NCBI GenBank assembly: GCA_030141605.1
Contig: JAQGDQ010000382.1
Span: 92,001-156,000, forward strand
Origin: Tubiluchus corallicola
Lineage: Eukaryota > Priapulida > Priapulimorpha > Priapulimorphida > Tubiluchidae
Direction of reading: 5' to 3'
Length of the DNA: 64,000 nt
Shown here: piece by piece, positions 9,186-46,630 of the stretch
Layout: every line of letters starts with the position of its first letter
Position numbering within the stretch: position 1 is the stretch's first letter
The notes under the pieces: model-generated
Seen by the model: the letters and a program-made list of their open reading frames with translations, nothing else
Told to the model about the DNA's origin: nothing
Database searches by the model: none
Position numbers and translations under genes: made by a program

Positions 9186-9410
9186 CTTCCTGTATTGCAA
9201 TAAACAGAACATGTGGTGAAACACGCTCAAGTAGCTGTATATTGATTACACAGCCAAGAATATCATTGGCTGAAATAAATACTTAATTAAGCATTTTGTC
9301 AAGGATTTAATTATCATTGGGAATTGATTAGTCTGAAATTTGAAGTTTTATTATTATGAACTAGTCAATGTTACTTTTAATATAACTTTTGCTGCCATTT
9401 TATTCTATGT

Positions 9411-15408: not shown

Positions 15409-16764
15409 TGTGCGAAAAATTGCCTTGTTTCTTCAAGGCATGGGGTGTACTGGGTATAAGGGCATTTTACGATTTCTTTAGTAAGGCCCGCATCGCCTAT
15501 TTCCGTAAAGCTTAACGAGTCAGTTTATTTAGTGAATTGTCCTGTTCACTAACTCATAATCAATGTACTCAGCCATCTGAAAAACTGCTTGACAAATATT
15601 TTTAAAATAGTTTAAACAGATTTTATAAACTGTTTGGTATAAATGAATTACTTTCATAAAAGAGGTAAACAACAACACAACTGTGGACATAAATAATTAA
15701 ACCTGCTCATAATTATATTTACAATGCTTTGGTGATTATAATAATAATAATAAAAATTATAAACAATCAATGAGGTGAACACAATCAACCTGTTGAAACC
15801 TGTAATTGCAGGACATTGAAGATTTACCTGAGAGAAACAGCAGCTAAATATGGTTAAAACCCATTAGCAACTGATGTAGGAATGGTAAATTAAAAATCAT
15901 TGTACATTAAACTAAATAACATTGTACGTCTGTATATACATATTTATAAGTGGATGAATGAACTACACACATTTAAAAATTATTTGAATTAAACCATTAA
16001 AAAGTACTATACAGCATTTTACGGTACTCTTAATTATGTTAATATTAAAACACAATTTTTACTAGGTAAAAAAACAATATTTTCCAAAACTAAAAGCACG
16101 AGATAAACTTTAGTAGACATAACGTTACACCCAGTCAACTAAACTTCATCACTGACTATTAGTAATAGATTCTGATGTGCCCTCATCAGACCTAATTCAT
16201 CAGATTGGAAATTAACAATCAAATACATAGAAACTAAATCCCCTGCTCTTATGATTAGCTCTTTGTTAACAGATGTCATTGTTTTTGTTATTAAACCAGT
16301 AAGTCAAAACATTAACACCTATAATTGATCAGATGCCAATTTTTAAGTATAAAAATGTTAAGGCTGGTGACTGCTGGTGGTAAAAAAACATCCTTTGCTA
16401 TAGAATTTACCCGTAAAACATTAACCTCCGTGTAGATTTTGTGCTTCAATCCTATTCGAACAAAATCTGTGTCCAGTGTGCAAAAACAAAATGTCAACTT
16501 GAGTTCAGTACAATCCTGGATCTGTGCAGCTCATAATGGATCTACGCAGAGGAAATATGGAGACTACGCTGACAGGGTCATTGGGACGTGCGAGTTTGGA
16601 GTGGACGTCCCACTCTGATTAGATTGATTCGACAGCCCGTCAGTCGTACGCAATGGTTTAGCCTGCAGGCTGCGTCGTGGATCTGCAAAAATGTTAAGCT
16701 AATTATGAATCCTCAAAAATCCAAGCCTAACCAGTATCGAGTATGGCGTGTTCAGAATATTTAA
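15409..16764. other. Non-coding stretch
   Basis: Includes a short (AAT)n at about 15740-15752. No gene recognised. Confidence 0.45.
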
Positions 16765-18408: not shown

Positions 18409-18555
18409 CTGTACGGTAATGGATAAACCACAACATTGCTGTTAACAAGCAACCAACGACAAATGAAGTGAACGCAATGCCGACTACGGCTCCGGATTCT
18501 AGACCGATCACGCACGGCTTGCTAGTAACAGTGGGACAACCTCCTCCAACCGAAT
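18409..18555 (-). CDS. TGFBR3: Exon 14: juxtamembrane region and transmembrane helix
   Basis: Acceptor CTAG, donor GTAAGT; enters and leaves in phase 1. Encodes a short Cys-containing linker (GGGCPTVTSKPC) and then the membrane segment SGAVVGIAFTSFVVGCLLTA followed by MLWFIHYRTG. Vertebrate betaglycan has GIAFAAFVIGALLTGALWYI at the same place, and this unusually conserved helix is the strongest single identification of the gene. HYRTG starts the cytoplasmic side. Confidence 0.93.
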
Positions 18556-21500
18556 CTAGTGCAACAATTAAAAGCAATTAAATTAAATTTTAAAAAGTCG
18601 GTGTGAAATATAAAGGAATTAAAATTGGAAATACGTCGGTGGTATGATTTAACACAAATTTGAGATCTTAGCTCTAGAAAAACAGTAGGTTCGTGATGAG
18701 CAACTAAATACAAGAAAAAAATGCAGCACTTCATGCAATGCAGTTGGATTTTTGCTTAATTAAAGTTTGGTTAATCTTGCTAACCTTGGAAGAATGAAAC
18801 TTACATTTACACATGAACTAAGCACCAAACGACTGAGTATATAAATTTAATCAATGGATTATAGGACGCATTTACTGCATTGGCTAACTGGATAATTCAG
18901 AAAATGACAAAATAAACATATTTTTAAATTATGCAACATGTGATGATGCACTAATTTAAAAATCACATTACCCTCTCCTTTAATTACAGTATTTATAGAA
19001 ATTATGGTAAATGAACTTAAAGACATCCTTAAAATTTCAAAGTTGTTTGATAAAAAGTGAAAATATTTAGATGAATGTCACTTAACATTAGTACACCTTC
19101 TTTCACACAAAAATTAAAACTTCTAGAGGTACGTCACAACAAAGGACAATCATTCAAATGACAAATGTGAGGACGAAAGAAAAAGGAAGTCACAAAAAAA
19201 TCATGTTGCAAATCACGTGGAAGTCAAAGAGGCAAGATACTTTCTTGTAATTCGTGCAATGTTAACACATTCTCAAAAAGACAACTTTTTCATTGTTTGT
19301 TCATTGTCTTTTTGAGAATGTATTAACATTGCATGAATTACAAGAAAGCATTTTGCCACTTCGACTATCACGTGATTTTCTCGACTTCTTTTTTCTTTCG
19401 TATCCTCATATTTGTCACATGAATGATTGTCATTTGTTGTAATGCACTACTAGAAGTTTTAATTTTTGTGTGAAAGAAGGTGTACTAATGTTAAGTGACA
19501 TTCAACTCAATATTGTCACTTTTTATCAAACAACTTTGAAATATTAAGGATGTTTTTAAGTTCATTTACCATAATTTCTATAAATACTGTAATTAAAGGA
19601 GAGGGTAATGTGATTGTTAAATGAATGGCAACAAGCAAGCACCATTTTCCTCAAATTCAAAAAAGTGAAAAAGATTAACATTTCTGAAAAAAGTCAGTAC
19701 TTGGTATTGAATTTTTGTAAAATATTTCTTTCCTCGCCACCTCCAATCTTAGAAGTCTGATAATACTTTGACAATATAAACTGTAGGACATAGCCGTGGT
19801 ACAAGCTGATGCTAATCACATACAGTCCTTTTAACAACCAGTTTCAAGAATCAAATGTGGCACACTAGCCAGTAATAATTAAAATAAAAAATAAAAAGTT
19901 AACAGTTTTTTATATTTTAGTTGGTGATTAAAAACCTAATGCTGGTTTACGTTACACGTTTACTGTGCAAAATTCTTGTAAAATAAAAATATTTAAACAT
20001 TCGTTAAAATTAGTAATCCACTTTTAACTACAAAATGAAACATTAGACAACAAAAATGAAATACCTGGTAAGTCGACTTTCTGCATCATGTTTGAAAAAT
20101 GAATAGGTCCCCATACAATCCCGGAAAAGCTGTCCGCATTGCTCGACACTGTGTGTTGAGCTTTGCAGTACGAACCGAGATCAGCACACTAAGATTAAAA
20201 CAATGTAGCTAGCTAACAAAAACACGTAGACTAACGAATAAATAATCAACGAAAGAAAAATAAATATAGAATCATCAATTACGTCATCTGTTAGGAAAAT
20301 TAAAATGACTTACTGTGATTATTAGCTGATATTATTAAGTATTTAAATTCTGCAACTCTTGACATTATAGGCACGAAGTTTTTGCACATTCAGTCAATTC
20401 TAAGAAGTGAATTTGATAAATGCAAGCAATGCAATATCTACAAATTAAAGGCAAACTTGAGTATTTTTACCTATTATTGTATTTTTAGAAATGATTTATT
20501 ATTAAACTAGAAAATCCTACAGTAAATCCTTAAAAATCAGTATGCTTTCAGAGAAAGTCTTAGTAATCTGAGCCATTAATTCATTACCCTACAGGCAGAT
20601 GTCTCTGTAAGCAATGAACATCTGTGGTCTACAGGCATTCTATGCAATTCTTATCAGGCAAGCCACAGATGCTCTGGTGAACAAAGCAGAAACAGAATAT
20701 CGTAAAAATTCAGGCCTCGCATGCACATACATTTGTAAATTCGTCATAAAATGACATTCATACACACTGAGACAGGACCACTTTCTAAAATTCACTTCTT
20801 TATTGTCTCTTGTGAAGTGATTTGAAATATAATGCATGTAATACGTAAACAAGACTCAATATATTAAAACGAAAAGAAACAAAAAGTTTTCAATAATTCA
20901 GTGGTTGAACAAACAGTAAGATACATCAACAGAAGCAAATTTTGAAGAAAAAAAATGATAAGCTACCAACTTAAATGATTTGTGTTGCAATGGTATTAAA
21001 GAGACCAAGCTTGTAAAAATGCCCTGGCTGTGAAGTTTCAAGTAATAGGCCTATATACATTTGAATAAAAATGAAAGGAAAAGCTGGAAGTAAGGAAGTA
21101 AGAGTTGACGACATGATGAAATGAAAATAGAGACAATAATACAAAATCAGTAAAGTGAAATAATAATAATAATAAACGATTAACTAATAAATCAAGAGTG
21201 CAGACCATTCTTGCAAATATGTAACGTGTACACAATATGTAAACAAATTATCATTTACAGGGCACTGAATTAAAATGAAAATATTGTCCAAAGGTTCAAT
21301 GTTAAACAGATATGTTCATTGTTCAGCTACATCATTATTGCTTCACTCATTTGCTGAAGCATTTGTTTGTTTGTGCTGCACCACAATTTACCAGTTACTC
21401 AATTACTGCTTCACCATAACAGTCTGAAAACGTGCATTGACTTATGTTGTTTTAAAGAAAACAGTATAACTTGTGAAAACAGAAACTACTGTGTTATCAA

Positions 21501-24500
21501 GCTCAAGTCACGACATCTGTAAGTGGATGCCATTGCAAATTCCCATAACAATTATCACATTTCTCAAAAGAATGTCATTTAATCACATCCTTTTAATCAG
21601 CCTTGCACCGGAAGTATGAGACAAAACAGCAGTACAGTTCCTGCATGCTTTGTTAGTTAATTCTAGTCTCTTTGTACATAAACTTAACACGTATCTTACC
21701 CACGTTGTACATATATAATAAATGGTTATTCTTCGAGACTATACTGCTTAATTTCGGGTTGGATTGTTCATCGCGTTACACGTCTACAAATATTTCTAGG
21801 AGGAAAACCTTATAGTAAAGAAGCTAGCATTAACTCAAATGTCATACCTGTTCTACGGAATCTTGACTATGGGAATTATTTCCTGGATTACACACACTAA
21901 CTTGACAGTGAAGGTACACAGTAGCAGATCCAGGCATCCAGTATGGTGATAGTGTCAGTTTGAACTTTTGTGTTGCTGATGATGAAGACGTGTTAATCAG
22001 TTCAACCGTGTCATCCACAGGACACCTGTTTTAGATGTAGAAAATTTGTGCATGTCACTCAGAATTGACAAATACCTCTCAAGTAATGTTAAAATAACTA
22101 CAGCTTTTTAACATAATTTTACCTTTTTCTTATGATATAACGTCTATCCTGTCCATGCTGGTCATCTGCATGACTCAACCAACATTCCTGGGTTACAGCA
22201 CCCAAGCGACTGCCTGCAAAATTTAAAGAAATAATCAGTTAACTTTATATAATCAGTATATATCATTAAAATATACCTCGTTTACCAATTGTTATATCAA
22301 GTCAACTTAAGAACTACCACGTTTGCAAAATCAGATAGAGATAGCAACTGTGGTGACTATAGTGAGAATAGTATTATACTTCATCATTTTCTAATATTTG
22401 AGTGTATTAAATAAGTACGAATGACTGTTTGTCTAACAGACAAAATTACTTAGAAAAAAACAGAAAGCTTTTTAATTTTTTACTCACTACAGTAAAAGAG
22501 TCCTCTGAAGGCCTTAATAACAGCTAATTACAGTCTCCTTCTAATTATAGTTGTTACTAATTATAGATGTTACAAATTATAGCTGTTACTAGTTATAGCT
22601 GTGTTGTCAAACTTTCTGATGGCTTACGAATTTAATAGTTTAGTTAGCCAATGCTGCAAAACAAGGATTTGAAAGCACATGAAGCTTGTGTCTTATTGGT
22701 CAGTGATACAAAGTCATAAGGTGTTCTGACCAATTAGGACAATTGAAGGGAGAGAGGATGAATTTTCAATCCATACTTCAGTTGGCATGAATATTCAACT
22801 CATTAGATAGCAATCTCTTTCTAGTACAAACTCAATGCACATTGCACTGTGTCCCAACTTGCTATTCTATATTAAGAATACAGCAGAAGCATTTTTTCAG
22901 TGTAGGAGGTCAATATAAGTGGACATTCAAGGCACCATAAAATTAGTAAAATTAAATAAAAACCTGAATAAATTTGGCAACATTAATCTAGAAAATCTAA
23001 AATTATTTTAATTTTTATATTAAATTTGCCCATGGTAATCCAAGGTTCATGTTAAACACTTGATGCAAAACTTGGAAAATTTTGGCAGCAGTGCCAGGAC
23101 CAGAATCTAGTTCGTTAATCCTCAAGGCACAGACATTGAAGGGTATGGTCTCTTTCAATATATACACATCATCCAGAAACAAGAGAAGCAAACGAGGCAC
23201 ACAGCATTAATACTGTCCAGAACCATTTCTGCTAAGGTTATCCATTGATTTACTAGCCAGGTCCAGTGTTTATTATCTGCATACACATTCGATGAACAGC
23301 CATTGATCTTGTGGGCAAATGTCGGGCATCCAAAGAAAGTGTTAATAAACTGTTTTCTTTAAAGTGAGTTCTTCACAGCCGCAAGCAAAACACCATAACA
23401 CCAAATAGCATTTGAAAAAACATAAAGTTACAGGCAGAGCAGCTATTGCGCCAGACAACATCAATTTTCTGAATAACTGATAGACAGTAAAATAAAAGAC
23501 CAAGAAAAACCACAAGTACAAACCTTCACTAGTTGTAACTTCAACAAAAACTTCAGCTACATCCTCAATTGTGATTGGTGTTTCAAGTAGATTAATTGAC
23601 TCCAACTCATTATAAACATGTAGTTCAAATAGCCCAGCCTATAATCACATATAAAACTCATCATATAAATATAACTTGTCATATAAAAATTAAGATTATA
23701 AAAAACATTTATACTAAAATTACATAAGTATATGAACGCACAAAAAAATTATAAAATTCCCGGCCGGGTATGCGATGAAAAAATTCAACAAAAACAGAAG
23801 TATTTTTATTGTCTGCATTACCAACTTGCCATAATAACTTGATAATAACATAGCAACTTGTACTTGTATAACAATTTATCCATAGTAGATCTCAAAACAC
23901 ATGACACACCCAGCCGAGTTTTTTACATGATTAAGAAAGATTGAGTGCCATCACTAGACATTCGTTTTTTCAAAAATTTATTTCTGTCTGAGACATGATT
24001 GATTTTTTGACAATTTACATATTGCCTCAATAACAAAAACATTTCAGTGATGCAACATCAAAGTGATTAAATACAGAGTTGAAATTAGATATAGATGCTT
24101 TTGATGATAATTTCACGGTGCATAATTAAATGACGAGAATGAAAAGGAGAGTGAAAGAGTGTGTACGTGTGAGAGAAAGAGAAGAGAGAAACAGAGAGAA
24201 GAGGGGAGGAGTGAGCGAGGAGGGAGAGGGAAACAGGGAAAGCATGGGAAAGTCAAGAAAGAGCAACAAATACAGCGAGGATGAGAGAGAGAAAGAGAGA
24301 GATAGAGAGATGAGAGACGGAGGAAGGGAGGGAGGTAGGGAGGGAGAAAGGGAGAGAGACAGAGAGAGAGAGAGAACGAGAGAGAGACTGAGAGAGAGAG
24401 AGACAGCAAGTCTTATAAGCATAAGATCTTATAAAAGTAATTTGCAGCTACCAACTAAAATGAAATTATGTGAGTTTACGGCACGTGGGCTAGTATTTGC

Positions 24501-27500
24501 TTGCAGCAAGGTTCAAGAAATTGCACTTTATCATTTAGCAAGGCTCCATTTCACATACTGTCTAAAGTACAATTGCAAAATTCATATTTTCTAACCTGTT
24601 TTGTGCTCATTTCAGGTTTCAATAAACTGATTTTGCAGTAGTTATCAAATGAAACTTGCATGGTTGAGTCATCAATTACAGTCCATTCGTTGGACATAAA
24701 TTTAGCAGGTACTGCAACATCACGGGGCCAACGTAAGACAATCTGTGAAATAATAAAAGAATTCATGTTACTAGCAAAACCGATAAATGTTTTCAACAGC
24801 TTATTTAAATTCTTAATCATGGTTGCTTGTTAAATAATGCATTAAATATTCTTATAGTAAATAATGCACTGAAATATTATTATGCTAAACAATGCACAGA
24901 AATATTATTATGTTAAACAATGCACTGAAATATTATTATGTTAAACAATGCAATGAAATGTTGTTACGCTAAACAATGTACTGAAATATTCTTATGCTAA
25001 ACAATGCAGCGAAATATTATTATGTTAAACAATGCAATGAAATATTCTTATGTTAAACAATGCGGTGAAATATTATTATGTTAAACAATGTACTGAAATA
25101 TTATTACGTTAAACAATGCAATGAAATATTATTATGCTAAACAATGTACAGAAATATTATTATGCTAAACAATGCACTCAAATATTATTATGCATAATTT
25201 TCAATGTAAACAACACTGGCACATCAACATCAAGCCTCATGTAAATAAAATACTTGAGAGAAATACTGTTCTGGGATATTAGACTTACTTGAAAGTTCAC
25301 GAAAATGTTAGAAGGAATTAGTAATAAAAGTGGAATAAGTGTGATTAGTAAAATCACTTTAAAGCCAAGATCATTTCATTTGTGAGCTCCCAATTTGAAA
25401 GCCACTCTTCCAGCAAAGACAACGTGTATCGGGTGAAGAAAAGCAGAGCACTGTCAATTTAGGTCAGAAGTACAACAAGTTTTTACAAAAAATTAGATAG
25501 CCAATTGTGTGTTATTTTTTGTAAGAATATTAGTTAAACTACAGAAGTTTGAATTAGTTTAAGCAGCACGCTTATGGAAAGCCAGGATGTGCTTACAAAA
25601 ATTCGCGCAATCCGTCAATTATGTCATAATTTTCAACTGAACGGTAGCTAACACTGTGCCTGAGAATTTGTATACAGTGATAATATAAGTTAACTTAATG
25701 TGCTATAGACACAGTTTTTTTGCAAATTTCTTTGTTAAATTTTTCTATGTAAAAGTGATAACAATAAAATAAAACAAACCTGAACCACATAGACAGCTGC
25801 ATCATTGGTGGACAACTCCTGCATGCCACAACTGCCAACAGTTGCCGATAACACATAATGTGTCTGATTTTCGGTCGCTCCACAATCACGCACGCCACCC
25901 AGGGACAAATGACTCGCAGAAACGGCCAACTGACTGTTGACAACATCCTTCCTCAAAGCAAAAACCATCAATTCCAAACTGCAAACTTTTTCCAGAGCTT
26001 CTTTTAATAACTGAGAAAAAATATAAAATTTTCTACTTTTAGAAAACAGATTTTAACACAGTGATTTTAAACTTAGCTATTATACAGCACAATACAATGC
26101 ATTCAGTATAAATGCATTGTACCAGTCAGGAATCTAGAACCAATGGCTTTATCAACGTACAGGTAATCGTCGACTTACAACCTATGAAACTTACGTCTGT
26201 TCGGTGTTACGACCCGAACACAACTCAATTAATCAATTATGCAAAACCAACTATAACTCATATTTGCTTCTATATTTTGAAACAAATTATCTTCAGATCG
26301 CTGCCTGTTTTGATAAATTCACCGTAGGCACCAAGACGCTTAGTGAACGTACACACAACATCTTGCATGTAGGGGTGCATCACTTTAATAAACGGGTCCA
26401 AATCGTCTTAGGACCAATCAGACAGAACTAACTGTTGTCGTAAGTAGACAACTACCTACAAAGTACAGATATGTTTATGTTTTCCATTTATAAGGCAAAC
26501 AGACAAGTAACACAGTGGCAAGCACAGCTGCTGACAAGGAGCCGGATTCTTGATGGTCACCCATCTATTTGTTAGCTATGTCTAGCAATGCTCAACTTTA
26601 CAGCTAAACATGCCATGATCATTGAACTATTTTCCTTCACTTCAGTATTGGTTAAACCTCTCTCACAATTCTTCATATATTGGAATTTGGGACTCTTGAA
26701 TCATGATAACAAATTAATAAAACCAACTGTATTCAGTTGTCCAGAATCTTTTTATTCTACATTTTGTATCTGGGCAAATGATTATGAATTGAGACACTAG
26801 GCGGATGCACTGTGAAATATGCACAAACAATAAATCAGTGTAAATATTAAAATGCAAAATTGCAGAATGCAGATAATAATGACAGTGTTTCTGATAAAAT
26901 AGTAGTCTAAAAAGTTAATCAACGGCCTGCAAGCACAGCAAGTGGTGATGTTACAATTGAACATAATTCTGTAAGGCAGAAACTTTCTATAAGCTGAACT
27001 TTTGCACGTGTTCACAAAAGAGAAAATTGAAGTACAGTGCTATTGGTTAGCGCTGACAATAATTTACACCGATTAGGCAATCTTAAGTTTAAAAATTTAA
27101 ATTCCACGATTACGACTGTGCCAATACGCAATTTCATCACAAGTGTGTGCCACCTCATAACTGAACCGAGAGGTATGAAATGCAGCTGCTGTGGCCCATC
27201 TAACTAGCACATGTAACAGCGAAGAACTAACAGCGCAAACAAGAAACTTAACTTCTGCAGTAATAATTTTTTCACGTAATTAGTTCTTAAAAAAATAATG
27301 TTTTCCCTTTGAAAAGTTTATACGTCACAACACTTTGAGTTACGATTTTACGTTGGTTCCAGTTTTTCTTTAACATTCGTTTAATTTTGGGCTAGGTAAC
27401 AATTTTAAAGGGCTGCACGTGGCATATGAACATAGTGTCCAATCAGCAGCTATTTATCATTTTGATCTCATCTCATATAAAACACAAAGCCACACACAAT

Positions 27501-30500
27501 TAATAACAGTTTGCATTTATACAATAATTATACCATTACCTGCTTGACAGGAAAAGATGTTGAAGGTGGTCTACCAAATGGCAGACTAATGACCGGTCTC
27601 GGCGATGTTCTCACTGTCGATGATTGTTCTTGTTCTACATCAAATGCACTACTACCTGATACCAAATGCCGAAGTACATCTATAAGAAATGCGATCAATT
27701 ATTAATAATAAAAGAGATCATTTATTTTAATATTAACAGCGAACAAAGAGAAGCTCTGCTACAGCTTAGGCATTTCTCTATGTTTTCGCCAGAGCTGTGG
27801 AGTCGGAGTTGGCAGTAAATCCGTTGTTAAAATTGCACTTAGCTAGACTATACTCTACACATTGCTAGAGGAGTCGGCATTCGAGTCAGTGAAAATAAAC
27901 AAAGTCCGACTCCAGTTACTTTTAAAACAATTATACCTAATGCTAATGTACCTTAGGTCATGTTAAGTTAATTATATCAGCAAAAGTAAACTGCTGATTG
28001 TTATGGCTTAGGCAGCCTTTTTTACCCTGGGCAATTACAACCTGTTGGTAGATACTTATTCTTAAATATATTTACATTATGGTTTTATTTTTGCAAACAT
28101 CATTTGGTGAACATGAGCATAAGAAGTAGTCTGATGATTGACTTGGTAGTGATGAAATGCCACTGTAGCTGTACAATACAAAATATTATCTAAATGCAGG
28201 AGTCGGAATCAGAGTCGGAGTCAGAGTCGGAGTCAGAGTCGGAATCAGAGTCGGAGTTGGATCTTCTAAGATTTTAATAGTCGGAGCCGGCAGTTTAATG
28301 TACTGATTCCACAGCCCTGGTTTTCACTGATCGGGAAAGGAGTGTATGTCTAACTGTAGGCTGCACAGAAGTTTTTTAACTTAGCAATGTTGACAACATT
28401 GTATAGCGACTTGTCAGAAAATGGCAATACGAAGACATTGAAGACATAATAGACAGACTAGACAATGAAGAGATATCCCAAAAGCAACCAGACAACTCAC
28501 CACTATAATTTATTCCAAACGTAAATCAATACACAGTTTACATTGAGAGAATTCCACATGTAAAAGCTGGAGGAACAGCCAGATACGCAGGTTTAATAGA
28601 TAAAATTTAATACACAGTTTTAAACAAAAATAAATCGATAATAAAATACAGGAATTTTACAATGGTCACTAATCAAGTAGTTACAATAGGCATTTTTCTT
28701 GTCCATTAAAAATTTTGTACTTTAATAAAACTGATTAAGAGAAGAAAGCGAATCAATGTAATTACTAATTTAGTGGCTTCATATGCATACAGAAAACTCT
28801 ATTGTCTATTCAGATGCATCTCTCAGATAGAAGAAAAACTACAGCGAATACCACATTAAAAGAAAACAAGGTTTGGAGTACCTTGTCTATCCATGACAAA
28901 AGTTGGAGTGTACGCAGGCTCATTTTGTCGCTCTTTCACTAAAACATGAAAAGTGTTAGCTTCCTGAACAAGGGCATACGATCGTAATGTGCCGTACTGG
29001 TTAAAGATCCACTCGGTTAATCCACTGGTTGGCAGCTGCTCTGACCGCACACTCACTACAACTCCAGTTGCTTTGCTTGTATTCACCGCATTGTTAGTCT
29101 GAAAGTAGAACAAGTGAATCAAAAGTTAGAATGTGCACCATACGAACAAGAAAAAGGCTTTGCTCTCTTACACTATGTAAGGCGGTACGGTGCCACCATG
29201 TTTTTCATGAAAGAGGCAGAAGGCGGCAGACTGCCACCCAAGCTCAGCACTAGATGCAGTCACCTAGGTCTGATTATTTCACTGCCATGGCCATTCAAAA
29301 ACATGGTACAAAAGTTTAACAGCCGTGGGATTGGAGTTGCTTTGCAACAAGTAATGCTAACCAGTCAATCAGTATCAGAAGCCAGGTACATTCCACAATA
29401 CTGTATTGTATGGTACGTTCGCATGCTTTGCAACAAGTAATGCTAACCAGCCAATCAGTATCAGAAGCCAGGTACATTCCACAATACTGTATTGTATGGT
29501 ACGTTCCCATGCAAAATCACTTGCACAACTATTTGTTTATTTTTCAAGATTCTGATTTCTGTTTTAGTAACGCACCACGAGAAGTTATTGTCAAATGTTC
29601 AAAGGTCAGTGTGGCCCAGCTAAAAAGCATCAACATAGTGAAAGGGTTAAAGTGGCTTGGCAATGTTAAGCTTTCCTGACATGTTTCTATTGCTATCACT
29701 CATGTCAACCAGTGGCTGGCAATACTAGGAATGATGGCTGGCACCTTTCATAAGCCCAAATCACAAAATCATTCTTGTCAACCAGTGGCTGGCAATACTA
29801 GGAATGATGGCTGGCACCTTTCATAAGCCCAAATCACAAAATCATTCTTGTCAACCAGTGGCTGGCAATACTAGGAATGATGGCTGGCACCTTTCATAAG
29901 CCCAAATCACAATTCATTCTTGTCAACCAGTGGCTGGCAATACTAGGAATGATAGCTGGCACCTTTCATAAGCCCAAATCACAAAATCATTCTTGTCAAC
30001 CAGTGGCTGGCAATACTAGGAATGATGGCTGGCACCTTTCATAAGCCCAAATCACAAAATCATTCTTGTCAACCAGTGGCTGGCAATACTAGGAATGATG
30101 GCTGGCACCTTTCATAAGCCCAAATCACAATTCATTCTTGTCAACCAGTGGCTGGCAAAACTAGGAATGATGGCTGGCACCTTTCATAAGCCCAAATCAC
30201 AAAATCAATCTTGTCAACCAGTGGCTGGCAATACTAGGAATGATGGCTGGCACCTTTCATAAGTCCAAATCACAAAATCAATCTTGTCAACCAGTGGCTG
30301 GCAATACTAGGAATGATGGCTGGCACCTTTCATAAGTCCAAATCACAAAATCATTCTTGTCAACCAGTGGCTGGCAAAACTAGGAATGATGGTTGGCACC
30401 TTTCATAAGTCCAAATCACAAATTCATTGTTGTCAACTAGTAGGTGGTAATACTAGAATAGCCGCTTCTAAAATCAAAGTAAGCTAATATGTCAATAAGT

Positions 30501-33500: not shown

Positions 33501-36500
33501 ATTTATGTCTTATTCTAATTATATCCCACAGGTGAGTAGAAGGAAGAGTTTAATAAAGACACATTTTCAAACTTATGTATCTCTCAATCCATTACTCAAA
33601 CAGCACCAGGTACATACTACTACTGTGGCTGGTTCGCTGCGTATCAATTTCAGCCGGTTTGTTATATCTGCACATCACTTGAAAGTTGAAACAGGAAGAT
33701 GGGTAAGACCTCCAATACTGCACCATAGGAGATTGTGTAATATTTGCGAAGATGAAGTACAAGATGAACAACACGTAGTAACAAGATGTAGGGTAACTGA
33801 AGAACTGCGAAGAAAATACAATATGACTTTTAATAATACAGACGATCTGTTTAATTTAGAGCGGGAAACATGTGCAAAAATAATTACAGATATACTAAAT
33901 TTATTCCTATGACAATCTCGCTAGAATACTATTGTACAGTATAAGCGTAAGGATGTATGTAGAATGAATATTTATTGTTATTATTATTTTGTTGTGAAGT
34001 GTTTGCTGGACTAATGTCAATAAACTACTACTACTACTACTACTACTATAGAGCAAACTTTTATTAGGCATTGCTCAGAATTAATTCTTAGTAACAAGTA
34101 TAAAAGAAAACAGGTTGTCAAAATTTTGTATTACATTGTTTTCCTCTACTTCATTTACTGAATTCATTATTACATGTGGTTGCACGTTAGTGCTATCATA
34201 ACATCTTCACATTTTCTTCTGTTCTTTTCTCATTTTAGCCATAGCATCGTTTTTCTTACTTATTGCATTTCTACATACTTTTGTACATAGATTCTCCTTC
34301 TTGTTTCTGTTTCACATTCAGCCGTTCTTACAAGCTATTATAAGCTTCTTGAATTGCTGCAGTAATATTATCACAAATAGATACTAATTGTTATTATTAA
34401 GCCTGTTAACTTGAACTAAAATTATGCAACGATGTACGTATATGTATGTAAAATGTATGTTACTTCGATATACTATTGATGTGAATAAAAGTGCCTGTAG
34501 AGTATTTTACTTACTGCAAAATTCATTTTAGCTAACATGCAGAATAAGGCATACATAAGGGTGAGCTGGGGTGCATTTGCATGTTCAAGCAAGGGAAGTA
34601 AGCATGTGTGCACACCTGCACGTGTGTCAGTGAGTGCGTATCTTATTCTGCACAACAAATAATTATAAGGTTTGAGTAACACTTTACAAATCAGTTTAAG
34701 AATTCTATACAACGTAGTACTAGTGCGGCTATATGGTGCGGTAAAGTGTAAATTCACCACACTACAGGGCCGTAGTCGGCTTTTGAAAAGTGGTCCGGGT
34801 ACAGATACGGAACAGGTAGAAAAAGAATACAGCAGCAACATATAGAAGAGTATATTATAATTTATAATACAGAGTTATAATATAATAGAGCACTACACAT
34901 ACTCAATGATGACATTATTGATTAAAACTTCCCAAACACACATCTGCGCCGCTCATTTCTAGCAGTAAACTCGTTCGCAATTTCCTTCAGGTCGAGAGCG
35001 TCTGTTCTATCCATATGTACATGCAAAGTCATGAGATTGTTCAGTCTAGTTTGAGTCATCGTACTCCGCAAATAAGTTTTTACTCTACGCAGGGCTGAGA
35101 ATGTCTAGGCACGTATGGCAGAAAAAGTGGTCCGGCCATGGCCGGACCGGCCGGACCGCCGACTACGGCCTTGCACTAACGAAGGTTTATTTTACACATT
35201 TTTAAAAACATGCCTGATTTTCACGTTTTTGCTAATAAAAATTACCACTTTTGCAATTTTGAATAGTTCTTTAAGGAATCTGAAATTTAGCCAGTTTAGT
35301 AATCTCTCTAGAGATTGTAAGAAGACTCTAATCATACTGTACAGGCACAGCATTAACAATTCTCATTAAATATCAAGTCTTGATGTGAATGACAGTCTGT
35401 TAGTAAGGTAACTGGTAAAAAGGTAAGCTTTCAGTTACATAATGTAGATCTTGGATAGTACACGAAAATAGCACAATTTAACATGTTTGTGGTGTTACAT
35501 CATTATTTGCTAAATTGGTGAACAATTGAACTGCATAGCCACTAATAATCATATCCTAGAACATTAGAGCATCGCTGAATAAGATGACAGATATCTGCAA
35601 TGCCAAACCTTAAAGGAAAACTGGATGATTGTGTAAACACGAGTTCAGAATAAAGAACGCTTTAAAATACTGAAAACTACTGTAGCTTATTTTAAATCAA
35701 AGCTAAGATTAAATAATAATTACCTCGGATACTCGAATTTTGTTAAACTTTCAAAACTTGAATCTACTAAGACTGGAAACTGCGCCTTTTTGTTACATTC
35801 ACGTGGCCGACAAATAGAAGGCGGTACCCCGATAACCATGATCATGAACTGCAGTGTTAGTTTCTGACGTCATATGACGTACAACCCATTTTCGCGACAT
35901 CACGTGTTTAAGCAGTAACTTACGCAAACGTGCCTGACATGCAAGGGAAGATGCCTGCCACTGCACAAACTGTGATTAATTTCTGACGTAACCAATAACT
36001 GTGTTCGGTTGCCATTGGTTAAGTTTCAAACTAAATATTGAAATATAAGAAACAATTGCTAACTTTTACAGGCCACAAAATGTGTATTTTGAACAGTAAA
36101 ATAAAATGAGATCGAGTCTAAACAATAGTCCAGTTTTCCTTTAAAATTACACATTAAAACATTAAAAGTTAGGTATAATAAACATACCATTGGCAACTGT
36201 TAAAATCATCTCCAGTCTGGGCTGCCGTAATTCTATCTCTGTTAAAGATGTCACATGACGATTTCTTTCACTCATCCAATCAACCAATTGTGCTGATTCC
36301 TTGGGAAGATATTTCTTGTGCGTCACTTTCACATTTTCCTCACTATGAATACTCACTCGAGAACCGTTGGACACCTGTTGCAACAAAAGAGAGTTAATTT
36401 CTCAAAGACGGTCTCAAAGTCTTTTTCCAGAACACCACAATTGTTCGAGTGCACGATTTCAAACATGAATATGACCATAACTGTGGTCACTAAAGTCTAG

Positions 36501-42500: not shown

Positions 42501-42949
42501 TATTTAAAGCATTATTGAAATTGACATTAATAACTGGCCCTATTGTTGTAGTTAACGTATTTTAAAAAAAATTCGACTCAGCATAAACCTTCTCAGTAAA
42601 TATGACTCAAACTAATTTTCCAGTTCACAGTTTAAATAGGTTTCGCTCTTAAACTTGTTCTACTTGAACGTTTCACTAAACTTTAAGAAGTTTCATTTTT
42701 TTGAGCAGTCGTATTGTCTTATGAAATACATATCGTTAACAAAACATTTATACATCATTTTCTATACTTATCTAACCAAATGCCTATTTAGATATGTGCA
42801 GTGGAGCCACTTTTATTGGATAATTCAAATTTTTTTTGTTTGCAGGTGTCTTTTTGTTGTTTGGCATGAGGTAATTTCTAATAATTTTGGGGTTTGCATG
42901 TAATTTGCAGATTTAGTATTTTGTGTGTGTGTGTGTGTGCGTGCGTGTG

Positions 42950-42982
<33 letters not shown>

Positions 42983-45900
42983 CGTGTGTGCGTGCGTGCG
43001 TGTGTGTGCATGTATAGTAACTTGTTTTTAGTATGTTATACGGCAGTTTTATATAACACTGAAAATAAATGGTGAATTGAATTGAATTGCAAATTGAAAC
43101 TTTTTCACAGGGTGGCGAATAAAGAATACAATCACAATTCAATGAATACATTCCAAAATCACATAACGAGCTGTCAATTTGTCGAATCATTGTCAACTAG
43201 TCAGCATCTCATTTCGATCCATCATCACTTATAATAAAGATGTTCAAACTGCAAAGATTACGTTTAAGATGCTTTTAGATAAAAGCGATAAGTACCTTTT
43301 ACATCGAGCAGTAACAGTACCAGAGTAGAATAGAATAGAACAGTAATGCTTCTTTGGATATCATAAATACAAGTAACAACAACTGTCAAATATAACTTGT
43401 GAGACGGAATCACAGAAAGGCTATACAGTCATCGCTGCTGTCACCACATGTTAAGGTGGCTAATGCTACTGTGCACATTTATAAAGAAAAATTCGATATG
43501 AAAAAAATCGTAACAGTTGCATACTTAACAAAACTTAACTAAAAGAAATTTCAAGCAAAACAAAATCATAAGAAATCAAAATAACATCAACACAAAAAAA
43601 GCAAATGAAAACGTAATTGCAACAATAAATGCAAGCAATGAAAAAAAATAAGCAACTAAGATACCTTCCCCTTTCAATAGTTTACAAGTTAGATAATATT
43701 GTACCAGATATAAAGCACACAGAAGAAACAGAGAGACAAAAGCAGCTTTTGCCTATTAATACTATTTCTGAGATTTCAGAAAGTCAATAAGCATTGCAAA
43801 GTAGAAAAAACTTAGCTACTAAACACGGTTTAGCTACTTATGTTCGAATCATCAAAAACAAAAAAAAGGCAAACTTAGTAACTTTACGTCAAGTTTGGTT
43901 TGCACTACTTGGACACTACTTTACGGCAGTGGTTTGCAGAAAATTCAAGCTCCAATGTCTTGTACATGTCAAACAATTAACTTCTACCTAAACCAGCCAA
44001 ATACCAGTACTGTAACTCATTTAGAAATCAGTCAAAAAGACGAAACTTTTTTGGTCTCTACGACCTTTCAGATACCATTTGGTCGCAGGTTAACTGACAG
44101 TGTTAGCAACAGTTTCCAATATCTGACATGCAGGCACTGTTGCCAGTCTAAGTATGCACGGCTGAAAATGTACGTAAAGGAAAAACCAACGAAATTACAC
44201 CTGTTTTAACCTTTCATGTATGTCCATCTTTCGAACTATACCTTCCCCAATGCTTTACAGGTTAGATAATTTTGTGCAATCTAGGTCCTAAAACTGGATC
44301 CCGTTTCCACTAAACAGTATTCTCTACTCACCATGCATAGCAACTACATCCTCAGCATTTCAACTTCAGAAATTTTTTAGCCTGGTTCAAAATGTTAGTG
44401 CATGAATTGAGCCAGTCCCCTGATAAACCCCTGCATGCATTCAATACTCTATTAAATGCATCTAATAGCACAAGTGACAAACCGGGAACAAAAAAGAACA
44501 CTTACTATAAATTTAAGTGATTTATCTTCAAGACTGTGCACTTGAACATCCCACAACATAGGTACTTCTGCTGAATTCAACAGGATAAGCAGAGGATTCG
44601 CCAAGACATCAGACCAGCCTTCACCGACAATGGTCAGTTTAGCAGAAGCAGCTACAGCACTAGCAATCTCTGACGTGCGTAAAACGTTAACGATGTATAC
44701 TCCATGTCCTGAAGATGACGAGAGTGCGGAGCAGCCGTGCACAGGTACAGACTCTTTGTTGTACACGGATATGTAGAGGGACTTCAATGGCTGGATATCA
44801 CATCTGCTTTCACCACTGCCGGATGCTGCAATTAAACACAGACTTTTTATCTGCACTATGAAAGAAGAACCACACTGCAAATTATACATAGAATTCTACT
44901 TTCCAGTTAAACCTGTTGGTTTAGTACATACGGGAATAAACTACTGAACATTGCAACAGATTTTAGGGGAGACTGAAGGTAAACAATCGACTTGACTTAC
45001 ATACGATTACAATTTCATATCGTTATTGGATCATGATAATTACCAGAACAAGCTATCATTACTGTCATTGTACAGGTACTTTAGCTTCGCATCAACGTGG
45101 ATTTATTAAGCGAAGCATACTGTATTACACGTATTAATCATAATATATGTATGTCTAAAATCGCACAGGTTTATCAAAGGTCTAAACTGCACATAAAAAA
45201 ATAAATAAAAAACAGAATTTACCAAAATATAAAAATTCTGGAACTTAACTCCATACCACGTCACTTTATTAATATGCCAATCCTCATAGTGATATATTAT
45301 GCTTTAGTGTATCCATACTTACAGTACTGTGTGCAGGCTGGGGAAAAACTAAGCAATACATACTACAACCACTTACCACCTTACAAAACAAAATTGCTAA
45401 ATTAATTACATTCTCTCATTACAAAGCAAATGCTACACCTTCGTATAAACAGTTAGATATACTAAAAGTTTGCGATATATACAGTTTGGAACTCTTTAAG
45501 TTTATGTACAAGTATAAAACAGGCACTTTGCCAGGTATATATAAGAACTATTTTTTAAAAATAAACGAAGTCCATTCATACTCGACGAGATCCTCAAAAA
45601 AAGGTTTCTACTTTCAAAATAGGTACAAGACTCAATATGGCTTGAATTCTCTACACCATAATGGTGTCAAACTTTTTAATAGTCTCCCTCATGAAATCTT
45701 AGCATGCCAAACATTGCACACTGCAGTTAAAAAATTTCGCCTCTATTTAATCGGCAACTATTCAGTTAATTAATGGATTTAGGAAAAAAAAATTTAATCT
45801 TAGTTTCGAAATCTCTTAGTTATCTTTCGGTTCGACATCTATTTCACTGAATATTCACATAGTCTAGAAAAAAAGATTCAGCATTATCCTTATTGTTTAT

Positions 45901-46630
45901 CGCTGACCTACTTTCATTATTTTTACTGGAGTTATATTTTGTTCCATGTATCTGTAATTGACGTAACTTCGATATTGCTTTAGTTTTTTTTTTTATATTG
46001 TTTCTTATGTTGGGTTGAGTTCTTGATTTATATGTAATTATTAGTTTTGTTTTTAATGAGTTTAAATTTTCCGTTTTGTTTGCTAATTTAAATCTTGCCT
46101 CTTCTCATAGCCAAACTTATTTACTGTTTCTAAATTTAATCTTATTTGAACTTGTTGCCTCAATTATTTTCATTTTATTTATTTTTATTTATTTTGTTAA
46201 GTTGCTGATTATTTTCATTTGTACATACCTTACTTGACAGGTCATTTAATTTTCTTTAGTTTGAATAGGGGTGGTTGACTTGGTGACCCTTGGTCTTTTC
46301 GCCACAACGTCTCTTTTCCGTCTTTATTTCAGTTTTTACCTTTTGTTTATGCTTATTTTGTAAAATTCAGAGACAAATAAATTTTTTACTTACTTACCAT
46401 ATAAGGCTCAATGTAATCGTTTTGTCACAACAAACAATAGATAATGATTGTCATTATAAAAAGATTCACATTTTCTTGATAATGCACATATAAGCAATAG
46501 TGGCAATGTAATTTCGCACGCTCTAAGTTTAATTCATCAAAGTAACTATAAAGCAGGACTTACCTAATACAGAGCACCCATGCAGTAGATGTATAAACCA
46601 CACTAGAGGCACACGACTGGTGCTACCCAT
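18409..46630 (-). CDS. TGFBR3: Betaglycan/endoglin-like TGF-beta co-receptor gene, exons 1-14
   Basis: Fourteen exons, each with GT/AG boundaries and compatible phase, join to about 752 residues: signal peptide, orphan domain (exons 2-7), ZP-N (exons 8-9), ZP-C (exons 10-13) and transmembrane helix (exon 14). In vertebrates this family is the type III receptor, which binds TGF-beta superfamily ligands at the cell surface and presents them to signalling receptors; ligand binding here is inferred. The order and spacing follow human betaglycan (851 aa). One gene similar to both betaglycan and endoglin suggests a pre-duplication form. The introns hold a same-strand LINE (intron 2), plus-strand LINE pieces (introns 1 and 3), a hAT remnant and MITEs (intron 3), a TTAGGG-like array (intron 4), minisatellites (introns 5 and 8) and a foldback (intron 13). 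The C-terminus is not established. Confidence 0.9.
18961..19615. mobile_element. 655-bp foldback palindrome (intron 13)
   Basis: The left arm (AATCACATTACCCTCTCC at 18961) is matched in reverse by the right arm ending GGAGAGGGTAATGTGATT (19615). Arms of about 315 bp pair almost throughout, around a loop near 19280-19310. TTAA lies within a base or two of each end, as for piggyBac-type targets. No coding capacity. Transcribed through, it would form a very long hairpin. Confidence 0.88.
20065..20188 (-). CDS. TGFBR3: Exon 13: end of ZP-C and stalk
   Basis: Acceptor TTAG, donor GTATTT; phase 0 in, phase 1 out. Begins CADLGSYC, the last ZP-C cysteine pair, then a stalk (NADSFSGIVWGPIHFSNMMQ). 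No RxxR furin-type site is visible, so release would need another protease. Confidence 0.88.
20189..21847. other. TGFBR3: Intron 12
   Basis: 1.66 kb, AT-rich, no transposon or repeat recognised. The open frames at 20640 and 21038 lack support. Confidence 0.6.
21848..22025 (-). CDS. TGFBR3: Exon 12: ZP-C core
   Basis: Acceptor ACAG, donor GTATGA; phase 2 in, phase 0 out. Encodes RCPVDDTVELIN, then KFKLTLSPYWMPGSATVYLH and CQVSVCNPGNN. The F/YLHCxVxVC signature is diagnostic of ZP-C domains, and the same position in betaglycan reads LFLQCELTLC. An N-glycosylation sequon (NNS) follows. Confidence 0.93.
22123..22213 (-). CDS. TGFBR3: Exon 11: ZP-C
   Basis: Acceptor GCAG, donor GTAAAA; phase 1 in, phase 2 out. 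GSRLGAVTQECWLSHADD, then DRRYIIRKR. Betaglycan has FAIQTCFISPYSNP and YTIIENICP here, so the first ZP-C cysteine and the following strand align. Confidence 0.9.
22214..23523. other. TGFBR3: Intron 10
   Basis: 1.3 kb. Holds a short degenerate repeat of TTACTAATTATAGCTG-like units at about 22515-22600; nothing else recognised. Confidence 0.6.
23524..23638 (-). CDS. TGFBR3: Exon 10: ZP-C start
   Basis: Acceptor ATAG, donor GTTTGT; phase 0 in, phase 1 out. AGLFELHVYNELESINLLET followed by EDVAEVFVEVTTSEG. This aligns with betaglycan NMELYNTDLFL and HVYVEVSVT. Confidence 0.9.
24130..24415 (+). repeat. GA-rich (GAGA)n tract, intron 9
   Basis: About 285 bp of almost pure purine with (AG)n and GGGAGG runs. 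The long frames on both strands (Arg/Glu-rich, Ser/Leu-rich) are artefacts of the composition. Confidence 0.9.
24596..24742 (-). CDS. TGFBR3: Exon 9: ZP-N end and ZP linker
   Basis: Acceptor ACAG, donor GTTAGA; phase 0 both sides (49 codons). IVLRWPRDVAVPAKFMSNEW, then STMQVSFDNYCKISLLKPEM. The cysteine supplies the fourth ZP-N cysteine position. It lacks the long acidic glycosaminoglycan-bearing insert seen here in vertebrate betaglycan. Confidence 0.88.
24772..25200 (+). repeat. 28-29 bp minisatellite element (intron 8), copy 1
   Basis: About 12 tandem units of the type GTTAAACAATGCACTGAAATATTATTAT (variants in several bases), preceded by a unique flank with GTTTTCAACAGCTTAT and GGTTGCTTGTTAAA. 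The same flank and repeat occur inverted at 36600-36965. Confidence 0.9.
25780..26010 (-). CDS. TGFBR3: Exon 8: ZP-N domain
   Basis: Acceptor CTCAG, donor GTTTGT; phase 0 both sides (77 codons). Contains VCSLELMVFALRK, RDCGATENQTHYVLSATVGS and CGMQEL. In betaglycan the same module reads CDNEKMIVAVEKDSF, then NGTHFVLESPLNGCG, so the cysteine pattern and the THxVL strand match. One sequon (NQT). Confidence 0.93.
26160..26459. mobile_element. MITE, about 300 bp (intron 7)
   Basis: The left CAGGTAATCGTCGACTTACAAC and right end, read inverted, TAGGTAGTTGTCTACTTACGAC form an imperfect inverted repeat of about 23 bp. No transposase; interior frames are short. Confidence 0.6.
26460..27539. other. 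TGFBR3: Remainder of intron 7
   Basis: No gene or repeat recognised between the MITE and exon 7. Confidence 0.55.
27540..27679 (-). CDS. TGFBR3: Exon 7: orphan-to-ZP linker
   Basis: Acceptor ATAG, donor GTAATG; phase 1 in, phase 0 out. Begins DVLRHLVSGSSAF, aligning with betaglycan ELRILLDPGALPAL, then runs into a Ser/Thr/Pro-rich linker (EQSSTVRTSPRPVISLP). The SGSS is a conceivable but unproven glycosaminoglycan site. Confidence 0.85.
28195..28265 (+). repeat. 12-bp (GAGTCGGAGTCA) repeat, intron 6
   Basis: Five to six imperfect copies, with a related GGAGTCGG word also at 27795-27880 nearby. Confidence 0.85.
28882..29098 (-). CDS. TGFBR3: Exon 6: orphan domain part 2
   Basis: Acceptor TTCAG, donor GTACTC (non-ideal but phase-correct); phase 0 in, phase 1 out. 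EQLPTSGLTEWIFNQYGTLR, then SYALVQEANTFHVLVKER. Betaglycan has IPSTQGNLVKWALDNGYSPI and TSYTMAPVANRFHLRLE here. That repeated layout (W...GY..ITSYT) marks the second half of the duplicated orphan-domain fold. Confidence 0.9.
29341..29511. repeat. 86-bp tandem duplication, intron 5
   Basis: Two nearly identical copies beginning TTTGCAACAAGTAATGC (29341 and 29427), differing at about three positions, which indicates a recent duplication. Confidence 0.92.
29703..30455. repeat. 73-bp minisatellite, about 10-11 copies, intron 5
   Basis: The unit starts TGTCAACCAGTGGCTGGCAA and contains AGGAATGATGGCTGGCACC and CATAAGCCCAAATCAC. The period is 73 (starts 29703, 29776, 29849), with some 71-bp copies that lost two bases. 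The last copy is diverged. Neighbouring units differ by few bases, so homogenisation is recent. Confidence 0.95.
31199..31373 (-). CDS. TGFBR3: Exon 5: orphan domain
   Basis: Acceptor TTCAG, donor GTAAGT; phase 2 in, phase 0 out. EVYAIQLLRVSPSSSLTVEL, then VVLVLMGPPNTSQWNVLTSG. Betaglycan aligns as EVHIIELITPNS, then LILILKCKKSVNWVIKSFDV. One sequon (NTS). Confidence 0.9.
31596..32390 (+). repeat. Degenerate TTAGGG-like array (intron 4)
   Basis: About 800 bp of GGGTTAGGGTTA with variants GGGTTAATGTCA, GGGTTAGAGTTG and GGTTAGTGTTGGATTA recurring in a higher-order order. Pure telomeric stretches are short. The G-rich strand is the plus strand. Confidence 0.95.
32472..32589 (-). CDS. TGFBR3: Exon 4: orphan domain
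   Basis: Acceptor TTCAG, donor GTATGT; phase 1 in, phase 2 out. DPSAVETCLLTETSRPGNIE, then VASLQSVNHLGCDSDLQMER. The two cysteines match betaglycan KCNIGKNFLSLNY and AAEGC, between the two halves of the orphan domain. Confidence 0.9.
32719..33117. mobile_element. hAT-like MITE, copy 1 (intron 3)
   Basis: Ends TAGGCATGAGCAT and ATGCTCACCCCTA are inverted repeats of the hAT style (TAGNG...). The interior (TTCAAACAAATTATTAGT, AAGTAACATGCAT) is homologous to the inverted copy at 51010-51389. The flanking 8-bp target duplication is degenerate at best (CTGCTTAG, CTGCCCAC). Confidence 0.72.
33190..34050 (+). mobile_element. LINE 3' end with zinc knuckle and (CTA)n tail (intron 3)
   Basis: 5'-truncated. 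Frames at 33202-33467 (RALTYAAETWLTSDFG, then LEALYDKVLKVLLGVKYSSP) are RT C-terminal sequence. 33505-33912 ends with CNICEDEVQDEQHVVTRC, a C-x2-C...H-x4-C knuckle typical of some LINE ORF2 C-termini. The 3' end is a (CTA)n tail at 34021-34047. At least one frameshift. Oriented against the receptor gene. Confidence 0.8.
34765..35173 (-). mobile_element. hAT transposon remnant with hATC dimerisation domain (intron 3)
   Basis: Terminal inverted repeats CAGGGCCGTAGTCGGC (34765) and GCCGACTACGGCCTTG (35158-35173) are flanked by direct CACTA on both sides. The minus-strand frame 35104-34922 encodes FSALRRVKTYLRSTMTQTRL, then NNLMTLHVHMD. This is the C-terminal dimerisation region of hAT transposases (normally FS.L+R+K.YLR..M...RL). 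The rest of the transposase is gone. Near the right end there is a GGCCGGACCGG palindromic cluster. Confidence 0.85.
35614..36140. mobile_element. piggyBac-like MITE with TTAA duplication (intron 3)
   Basis: Inverted ends AGGAAAACTGGA and TCCAGTTTTCCT, with extended similarity (ATTGT.TA). Flanked by TTAA at 35610-35613 and 36141-36144, the piggyBac target site. It is 527 bp, non-coding, and ends 47 bp downstream of the exon 3 donor. Confidence 0.78.
36188..36374 (-). CDS. TGFBR3: Exon 3: orphan domain part 1
   Basis: Acceptor ACAG, donor GTATGT; phase 0 in, phase 1 out. VSNGSRVSIHSEENVKVTHK, then LPKESAQLVDWMSERNRHVT and SLTEIELRQPRLEM. Betaglycan reads VSEGSVVQFSSANFSLTAET, then HLLNWARKEYGAVTSFTELK, a clear colinear match. 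Confidence 0.93.
36600..36965 (-). repeat. 28-29 bp minisatellite element (intron 2), copy 2
   Basis: About ten units of CATAATAATATTTCAGTGCATTG, followed by GTTTAACAAGCAACC and ATAAGCTGTTGAAAAC. It is the reverse complement of the element at 24772-25200, including about 65 bp of non-repeat flank. Confidence 0.9.
37740..40400 (-). mobile_element. 5'-truncated LINE (intron 2), same strand as receptor
   Basis: Minus strand. The element starts within the end of the endonuclease (NDKPTRISKTLSTLIDHFIS; then CDYSDHNFII). RT domain 39069-40307: GSGPSETPMKIL, ANVTPVHKKDSSTDPVNYRP, FGFRRKHSTTDA, VVATFLDLSKAFD. After a frameshift, 38873-39106 has LQQGIPQGTLLGPLLFCLYI. The YADD catalytic box is lost at a frame break near 38873. 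C-terminal RT follows to 37972 (GVQLWNTLPSNLKQ). The 3' end is an AATAAA-containing tail and (TA)n at 37738-37762. Dead copy. Confidence 0.88.
40401..42920. other. TGFBR3: Intron 2, middle part
   Basis: No gene recognised. A 23-bp-arm hairpin lies at 42359-42427 (AAATTGAAAGCCATAAGAC and its inverse). Open frames at 40904, 42143 and 42655 have no homology or splice support. Confidence 0.5.
42921..43012. repeat. (TG)n microsatellite, intron 2
   Basis: About 90 bp of TG with CGTG interruptions. Confidence 0.97.
43013..44505. other. TGFBR3: Intron 2, proximal part
   Basis: AT-rich and A-rich (43490-43660). The plus-strand frames at 43794 and 43895 are not recognisable as genes. Confidence 0.5.
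44506..44825 (-). CDS. TGFBR3: Exon 2: N-terminus of orphan domain
   Basis: Acceptor TGCAG, donor GTAAGT; phase 1 in, phase 0 out. Begins ASGSGESRCDIQPL just after the predicted signal-peptide cleavage, then VPVHGCSALSSSSGHGVYIV, MLWDVQVHSLEDKSLKFI. Betaglycan has SGCASRGTTGLPQEVHVLNL and LVWHLKTE here. SGSGE at the mature N-terminus could accept glycosaminoglycan, which is inference only. Confidence 0.9.
45190..46395 (+). mobile_element. 5'-truncated LINE 3' end (intron 1)
   Basis: Plus strand, opposite to the receptor. Upstream frames carry VIYYALVYPYLQYCVQAGEK. 45486-45773 encodes ELFKFMYKYKTGTLPGIYKN, then GLNSLHHNGVKLFNSLPHEI, the RT C-terminus. The roughly 600-bp 3' UTR has the GGGTGGTTGACTTGG...CTTTTCGCC block (46268-46302) and ends AATAAATTTTTTACTTACTTAC. 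It is the best partner for the broken copy at 1025-2290. Confidence 0.85.
46564..46630 (-). CDS. TGFBR3: Exon 1: start codon and signal peptide
   Basis: ATG at 46628-46630; ATG at 46637 is out, because it meets a stop after four codons. MGSTSRVPLVWFIHLLHGCS, then VLG, with donor GTAAGT at 46558-46563; leaves in phase 1 and joins exon 2 to give VLG-ASGSGE. This is a typical short signal peptide. No CpG-rich or clear core promoter is visible upstream. TATATA runs near 46826-46840 are too far and too generic to call. Confidence 0.82.

Follow-up and report, generated by a model that had tools for sequence, protein, structure and literature searches.

A predicted betaglycan/endoglin-type co-receptor gene in which most TGF-beta contact residues of betaglycan are missing

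In this work, we analyzed a stretch of 64,000 nucleotides (hereafter the window; C1950:92001-156000) and found on its minus strand, from 46630 to 16564, a gene of 15 in-phase exons that are separated by 14 GT-AG introns and code for a protein of 791 residues. The predicted protein comprises, in order, a signal peptide, an orphan domain, a ZP-N and a ZP-C domain, a transmembrane helix and a short tail. The best explanation, which we consider highly probable, is that the gene encodes a TGF-beta-superfamily co-receptor of the betaglycan/endoglin family (type III) from an animal that, judged by sequence divergence, ligand set and composition, is probably not a vertebrate. Judged from its sequence, it is a new member of this family and not betaglycan proper. 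An earlier note on this DNA had described 14 exons (46630 to 18409), all of which were present, joined in phase and bounded by GT-AG introns; however, that model was incomplete, as a fifteenth exon with the tail and the stop codon (16682-16564) lies beyond its end. The exons are as follows:

46564..46630, minus strand: exon 1, signal peptide, ending in phase 1; ATG with an in-frame stop upstream, donor gtaagt; set by eye
44506..44825, minus strand: exon 2, start of the orphan domain, with the predicted mature N-terminus SGSGE; spliced alignment, acceptor by hand
36188..36374, minus strand: exon 3, orphan domain; spliced alignment, boundaries by splice signals and frame
32472..32589, minus strand: exon 4, orphan domain with Cys199 and Cys223; 5' part by spliced alignment, 3' end by hand
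31199..31373, minus strand: exon 5, orphan domain with the shortened TGF-beta binding loop; spliced alignment
28882..29098, minus strand: exon 6, end of the orphan domain (EANTFHVLVKE vs VANRFHLRLEN in human betaglycan); spliced alignment, 3' end by hand at the weak donor gtactc
27540..27679, minus strand: exon 7, linker from the orphan domain to ZP-N; 3' part by alignment, 5' end by hand
25780..26010, minus strand: exon 8, ZP-N; spliced alignment
24596..24742, minus strand: exon 9, end of ZP-N and ZP linker without Ser-Gly; spliced alignment
23524..23638, minus strand: exon 10, start of ZP-C; 3' part by alignment, 5' end by hand
22123..22213, minus strand: exon 11, ZP-C; spliced alignment
21848..22025, minus strand: exon 12, core of ZP-C (Pfam ZP-C 4.2e-6 on the exon frame alone)
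20065..20188, minus strand: exon 13, 3' part of ZP-C with the FG-loop region (SGIVWGPI); start by eye
18409..18555, minus strand: exon 14, juxtamembrane part and transmembrane helix GIAFTSFVVGCLLTAMLWFI, the hydropathy maximum of the protein
16564..16682, minus strand: exon 15, cytoplasmic tail with an STP motif, and stop; by eye, acceptor tttttgcag

Together these exons add up to 2,376 coding bases with no stop codon before the terminal one, and the intron phases are, in order, 1,0,1,2,0,1,0,0,0,1,2,0,1,1. The model was built from DNA alone by spliced alignment with human betaglycan as the guide, which recovered most of the gene (about 44860 to 18400). Because the unaided alignment added spurious short exons and skipped exons 1 and 15 at both intron costs, the final boundaries were set manually, those of exons 1 and 15 by eye and the others by trimming according to splice signals and frame. 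The 3' end of exon 9 was set at a phase-0 donor, where the spliced alignment had placed it 37 bases further, and the 3' part of exon 13 was recovered at the lower intron cost only. Of the 851 residues in the human betaglycan sequence used here, 781 were verified as identical to PDB 7lbg_D. A plus-strand reading was rejected, the quoted transmembrane stretch GIAFTSFVVGCLLTA being missing from the plus strand and located on the minus strand at 18481-18437.

A retrotransposon piece inside intron 2 and several weak donors in the model (every donor from exon 6 through exon 13 scored 0.5 or less in a simple consensus score, with that of exon 6 at -3.0) could point to a decaying or mis-joined locus, where exons that are genuine remains of an ancient gene have ceased to yield a single protein. 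On the other hand, the frame stays in phase and free of stops across all 15 exons, the GC content of exons is well above that of introns (0.447 vs 0.335), and a signal peptide and a tail are both present. We thus regard such decay as very improbable and retain the reading of a co-receptor gene.

Apart from this gene, the following features were observed in the window:

5870-6790: long repeat; several frames of each strand are open and give peptides like TGNQYTDTAHWKPVHRYC
9007-9282, minus strand: peptidase S51 exon (Pfam 1.6e-20; nearest structure alpha-aspartyl dipeptidase 7c9b, 5.7e-28) of a downstream host gene
29700-30480, within intron 5: tandem repeat, its units spaced by about 73 bases, that yields a repeated peptide like NQWLAILGMMAGTFHKPKSQ whichever of the three frames is read
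39072-40424, minus strand: non-LTR-type reverse-transcriptase ORF (RVT_1 4.1e-12) in the 8.1-kb intron 2, on the strand of the gene; further element pieces, seen as ORFs only, extend down to 37975 in this intron
58030-59511: reverse-transcriptase-like ORF, judged by eye
60357-61541, plus strand: LTR-element ORF coding for integrase domains (zinc-binding and core)
63204-63638, plus strand: P-element-like transposase piece (TNP-like RNase H C-terminal domain, 6e-11)

In the flanks of contig C1950, inspection by eye revealed class I alpha-mannosidase-like frames upstream of the window and sulfatase-like frames downstream (L012, L009/L010).

Several lines of evidence placed the gene in the betaglycan/endoglin family. 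First, the spliced dynamic-programming score on the gene strand was 222 with human betaglycan and 177 with human endoglin, compared with 43.1-96.3 in 14 decoy runs, for which the DNA was reversed, read on the opposite strand or taken from elsewhere in the window, or the proteins were reversed or shuffled. Second, when the joined protein was searched against 177,635 distinct PDB sequences, betaglycan came first; the 12 sequences found at E values up to 10 included betaglycan chains at 7e-20 and 1.5e-12, uromodulin at 4.7e-8, eight chains of betaglycan, uromodulin and GP2 that matched in ZP-C with E values from 0.0049 to 0.044, and an unrelated chain at 1.2. As guided exon choice favours such PDB E-values, the decoys are the fairer control. 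Third, the HMM search of the joined protein that had been proposed in the earlier note found both ZP-N (3.7e-7) and ZP-C (3.2e-13) above their curated Pfam cut-offs; among nine open-frame peptides searched separately against Pfam, that of exon 12 was the one to pass its cut-off. Finally, the transmembrane helix was of the family type, with 13 of 21 residues identical to human betaglycan and 12 of 21 to human endoglin, and it is followed by a short non-kinase tail, of which about 39 residues are encoded in exon 15. Identities in the remaining domains were 69/310 (orphan), 25/75 (ZP-N) and 28/139 (ZP-C) with human betaglycan, and 59/290, 16/58 and 31/116, respectively, with human endoglin. Structure prediction for exon 8 alone was uninformative (mean pLDDT 46.5). 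The alignments, the Pfam matches and the decoys thus bore out the claim of a betaglycan/endoglin-type receptor in which an orphan domain and both ZP subdomains precede a transmembrane helix typical of the family; the orphan domain itself, previously assigned to exons 2-7, could be confirmed in exons 2-6, with exon 7 turning out to be a linker.

The ZP part is by itself insufficient to place the gene, since the ZP-C of uromodulin outscored that of betaglycan in the PDB search. It might be supposed, then, that the gene belongs to another ZP family and that an unrelated N-terminus came to resemble an orphan domain through guided exon choice, a reading for which the low identity of the orphan domain to human betaglycan and the lack of any PDB match for the 58-residue piece of exon 6 alone could also be cited. 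However, the joined orphan domain matched betaglycan 7lbg_D over 336 residues (phmmer 1.7e-12, residues 13-348), and no family other than betaglycan appeared for this region in the PDB list at E below 1. The conserved cysteine spacing of exon 4, three orphan-region introns at endoglin positions, the far lower scores of the decoys and the family-type helix also speak against such a resemblance. We consider this alternative extremely improbable, and membership in the betaglycan/endoglin family remains the reading adopted below.

The gene structure was also shared in part with endoglin. Fourteen intron positions were compared with human endoglin exon ends, a match being defined as a position within 4 alignment columns and an equal phase. 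The exon ends at 67, 219, 360, 523, 816, 991, 1134, 1272, 1311 and 1428 were taken from excerpts of the variant tables in PMC8647423, PMC8070971 and PMC4893224. Six of the 14 introns met this definition of a match, and random placement with the phases kept gave a mean of 0.87 matches and at least six in 1 of 20,000 draws; the tolerance was chosen after the alignment had been seen, and the test was not blind, because endoglin phases were known and the human betaglycan guide was used during exon choice. Four further endoglin exon ends were presumed to lie at 689, 1686, 1741 and 1852. Among the matches, the intron after exon 1 lies at most two columns from endoglin c.67 and that before exon 15 at most two columns from the presumed boundary c.1852, both in equal phase; the two introns of exon 3 lie 2 and 0 columns from c.360 and c.523 in the same phase, and the 3' intron of exon 5 is identical to c.816 in column and phase. 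The other eight introns were unmatched: four, which fall in poorly aligned linkers or at the equally poorly aligned end of ZP-N, lay 19 to 39 columns away from an endoglin intron; for two in ZP-C, no endoglin intron of equal phase was close by; the one that follows residue 662 missed by a single column; and one in the orphan domain was displaced by 18 columns.

With regard to the position of the gene relative to the two vertebrate paralogues, overall identity was 180/743 (24.2%) to human betaglycan and 168/638 (26.3%) to human endoglin, and betaglycan and endoglin shared 176/639, so that the distance between the gene and either paralogue is approximately that between the two paralogues. Near-equal identity to both is what would be expected for a lineage older than their split. 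The earlier note had further taken the presence of orphan and ZP modules in a single gene as a possible sign of the ancestral state. However, human betaglycan and human endoglin each carry both modules, and a two-module gene does not by itself show this state; the earlier interpretation was borne out in part, for family and domain identity. One could also argue that the gene is orthologous to just one of the vertebrate paralogues, with a split older than the animal itself and the other paralogue lying elsewhere or lost, particularly as the PDB search up to E 10 listed betaglycan and not endoglin. The almost equal identities do not favor such an assignment, nor does the single betaglycan gene of sea urchin, as described in excerpts of PMC11239237. 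In addition, flanks of about 1.5 kb on each side of eight of the ten other genomic ZP-C matches, compared with this protein, human betaglycan and human endoglin, contained no convincing betaglycan/endoglin-like partner, the best match in the fetched flanks being to human betaglycan ZP-N on L004 (E 0.007). Orthology to a single paralogue thus appears unlikely.

The gene also departs from betaglycan in its ligand contacts. It is known that the ligand-binding mode of endoglin differs from that of betaglycan. The residues through which the orphan domain and ZP-C of betaglycan touch TGF-beta were taken from excerpts of PMC11865472, in which orphan-domain mutations at F49, L210, L213, F250 and D253 are given as abolishing TGF-beta binding. 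Based on these residues, one of the ten listed orphan-domain contacts was kept here (S247), compared with nine of ten in human betaglycan and none of ten in human endoglin, and none of the five hot spots was retained. In exon 4, the TGF-beta-contacting leucines 208, 210 and 213 are replaced by R, G and E, respectively; four of the ten contacts (A249, F250, Q251 and D253) fall in the gap of the shortened binding loop and are missing or misaligned. In ZP-C, at most 2 of the 14 listed contacts were kept (D88 and W162, the latter matching in the ZP-C alignment and lost in the full-length alignment), compared with 12 of 14 in human betaglycan; changes included I161 to V, M165 to I, A158 to S and N82 to K. 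The hydrophobic pattern of the FG loop in ZP-C may be partly kept. Taken over both domains, most of the TGF-beta contacts that characterize betaglycan proper were not found.

In human betaglycan, the acidic glycosaminoglycan sites lie in the linker between ZP-N and ZP-C. The corresponding linker here (residues 485-534) contains no Ser-Gly, and the acidic attachment sites of betaglycan proper are absent from it. Elsewhere, Ser-Gly occurs at residues 24, 26, 61, 280, 314, 369, 684, 724 and 776, and candidate sites suggested by sequence only are SGSGE at the predicted mature N-terminus, which we take to be a candidate attachment motif, and VSGSSAFDVEQE in exon 7. The earlier statement that the acidic glycosaminoglycan insert is absent is therefore correct for the homologous linker and does not extend to the rest of the protein, whose mature form opens with the SGSGE candidate.

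TGF-beta sensu stricto is not known outside deuterostomes. A search of the gene's own assembly (343.5 Mb, 2,344 contigs) with the TGF-beta Pfam family gave at least 15 matches, which were reduced to at least 12 ligands because three matches were one sequence on three contigs and two looked like pieces of one gene. The ligands were compared with eight human sequences (TGFB1, TGFB2, INHBA, GDF8, BMP2, BMP7, BMP3 and NODAL), and among the matches listed none of the 12 was nearest by identity to TGFB1 or TGFB2, although a TGF-beta gene may have been missed. Clear neighbours were found for BMP2 (L013, 72%; L014, 63%), BMP7 (L016, 60%), GDF8 (L019, 61%) and BMP3 (L025/26, 62%; L015, 55%). Weaker placements were L017 with activin A (40%), L018 with Nodal (41%, vs 40% for BMP7), L021 with BMP3 and Nodal (34% each), and L023 and L024 with BMP7 (33% and 35%, respectively); the very divergent L027 was too close to call (GDF8 25% vs TGFB2 24%). 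In the PDB, L017 matched an activin A/BMP2 chimera first and then inhibin beta B and beta A chains, and L021, presumably a maverick-like ligand as judged by eye, was nearest to GDF5; TGF-beta chains ranked low for both. Given the distribution of TGF-beta stated above, the failure to find such a ligand makes a non-deuterostome animal probable, which fits, and does not prove, the missing contacts.

Two further observations were made on these ligands. The same maverick-like ORF end was present in L020, L021 and L022 on contigs C1787, C2138 and C2264, at a nearly equal coordinate in two of them, perhaps due to duplicated assembly scaffolds. L023 and L024 are related and very divergent, with a single cysteine where the other printed ligands have a pair, a feature that might keep their products from dimerizing through the usual disulfide.

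What is known of betaglycan relates mainly to its role as the vertebrate co-receptor for TGF-beta2 and inhibin. The protein described here would reside in the plasma membrane as a non-signalling co-receptor, where its orphan and ZP-C domains could bind a dimeric TGF-beta-superfamily ligand, perhaps docked on ZP-C. It may thereby concentrate or withhold the dimer at the cell surface, presenting it to type I/II kinase receptors or keeping it from them, while the short tail could steer trafficking via adaptor proteins. The growth factor handled would probably be other than TGF-beta, and, because the protein lacks most TGF-beta contacts and the genome search found no TGF-beta sensu stricto, the ligand would most likely be an activin-, maverick- or BMP-type factor. 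A broader suggestion, which we offer tentatively and rate a little short of evenly balanced, is that the co-receptor predates TGF-beta: a non-deuterostome would possess one such gene and no TGF-beta sensu stricto, the first ligands would have been of activin, maverick or BMP type, and the orphan-domain grip of vertebrates would have been added later. A relative with so few of the TGF-beta contacts, in a genome where the search found no TGF-beta sensu stricto, offers a direct test of the first role of the family and of when the TGF-beta interface arose.

Finally, we compared the gene with known systems. Human and zebrafish betaglycan (TGFBR3) are similar in module order, in the short Ser/Thr-rich tail and in the cysteine spacing of exon 4, where Cys199 and Cys223 are spaced as in human betaglycan; an N-glycosylation sequon in ZP-N is also aligned, as is perhaps, depending on the alignment, the FG-loop tryptophan of ZP-C. 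Unlike betaglycan, the protein lacks Ser-Gly in the ZP linker, has a shortened TGF-beta loop, misses the contact leucines of the orphan domain and differs in the last residues of the tail. Human endoglin (ENG) resembles it in modules, in six of the 14 introns and in its departure from betaglycan at the TGF-beta contacts, whereas identity is 26.3%, endoglin chains were not among the PDB matches of the joined protein, and the ZP-C cysteines 648 and 663 lack a counterpart in the aligned endoglin sequence. Uromodulin is alike in ZP-C (4.7e-8), with the significant match confined to residues 544-652 and no match to the orphan domain. Panda, a ligand studied in sea urchin, has reportedly been termed Maverick/GDF15-like in a paper title. 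Among the matches listed from open-licence full texts (titles and abstract starts), none reported a betaglycan gene for any animal group other than vertebrates and echinoderms. For echinoderms, an invertebrate betaglycan is already published: excerpts of PMC10381214 give one betaglycan gene per echinoderm, and according to those of PMC11239237 the single sea urchin betaglycan co-precipitates with Panda. By description, sea urchin betaglycan (TBR3; PMC11239237, PMC10381214) is likewise a non-vertebrate member of the family, present there as one gene.
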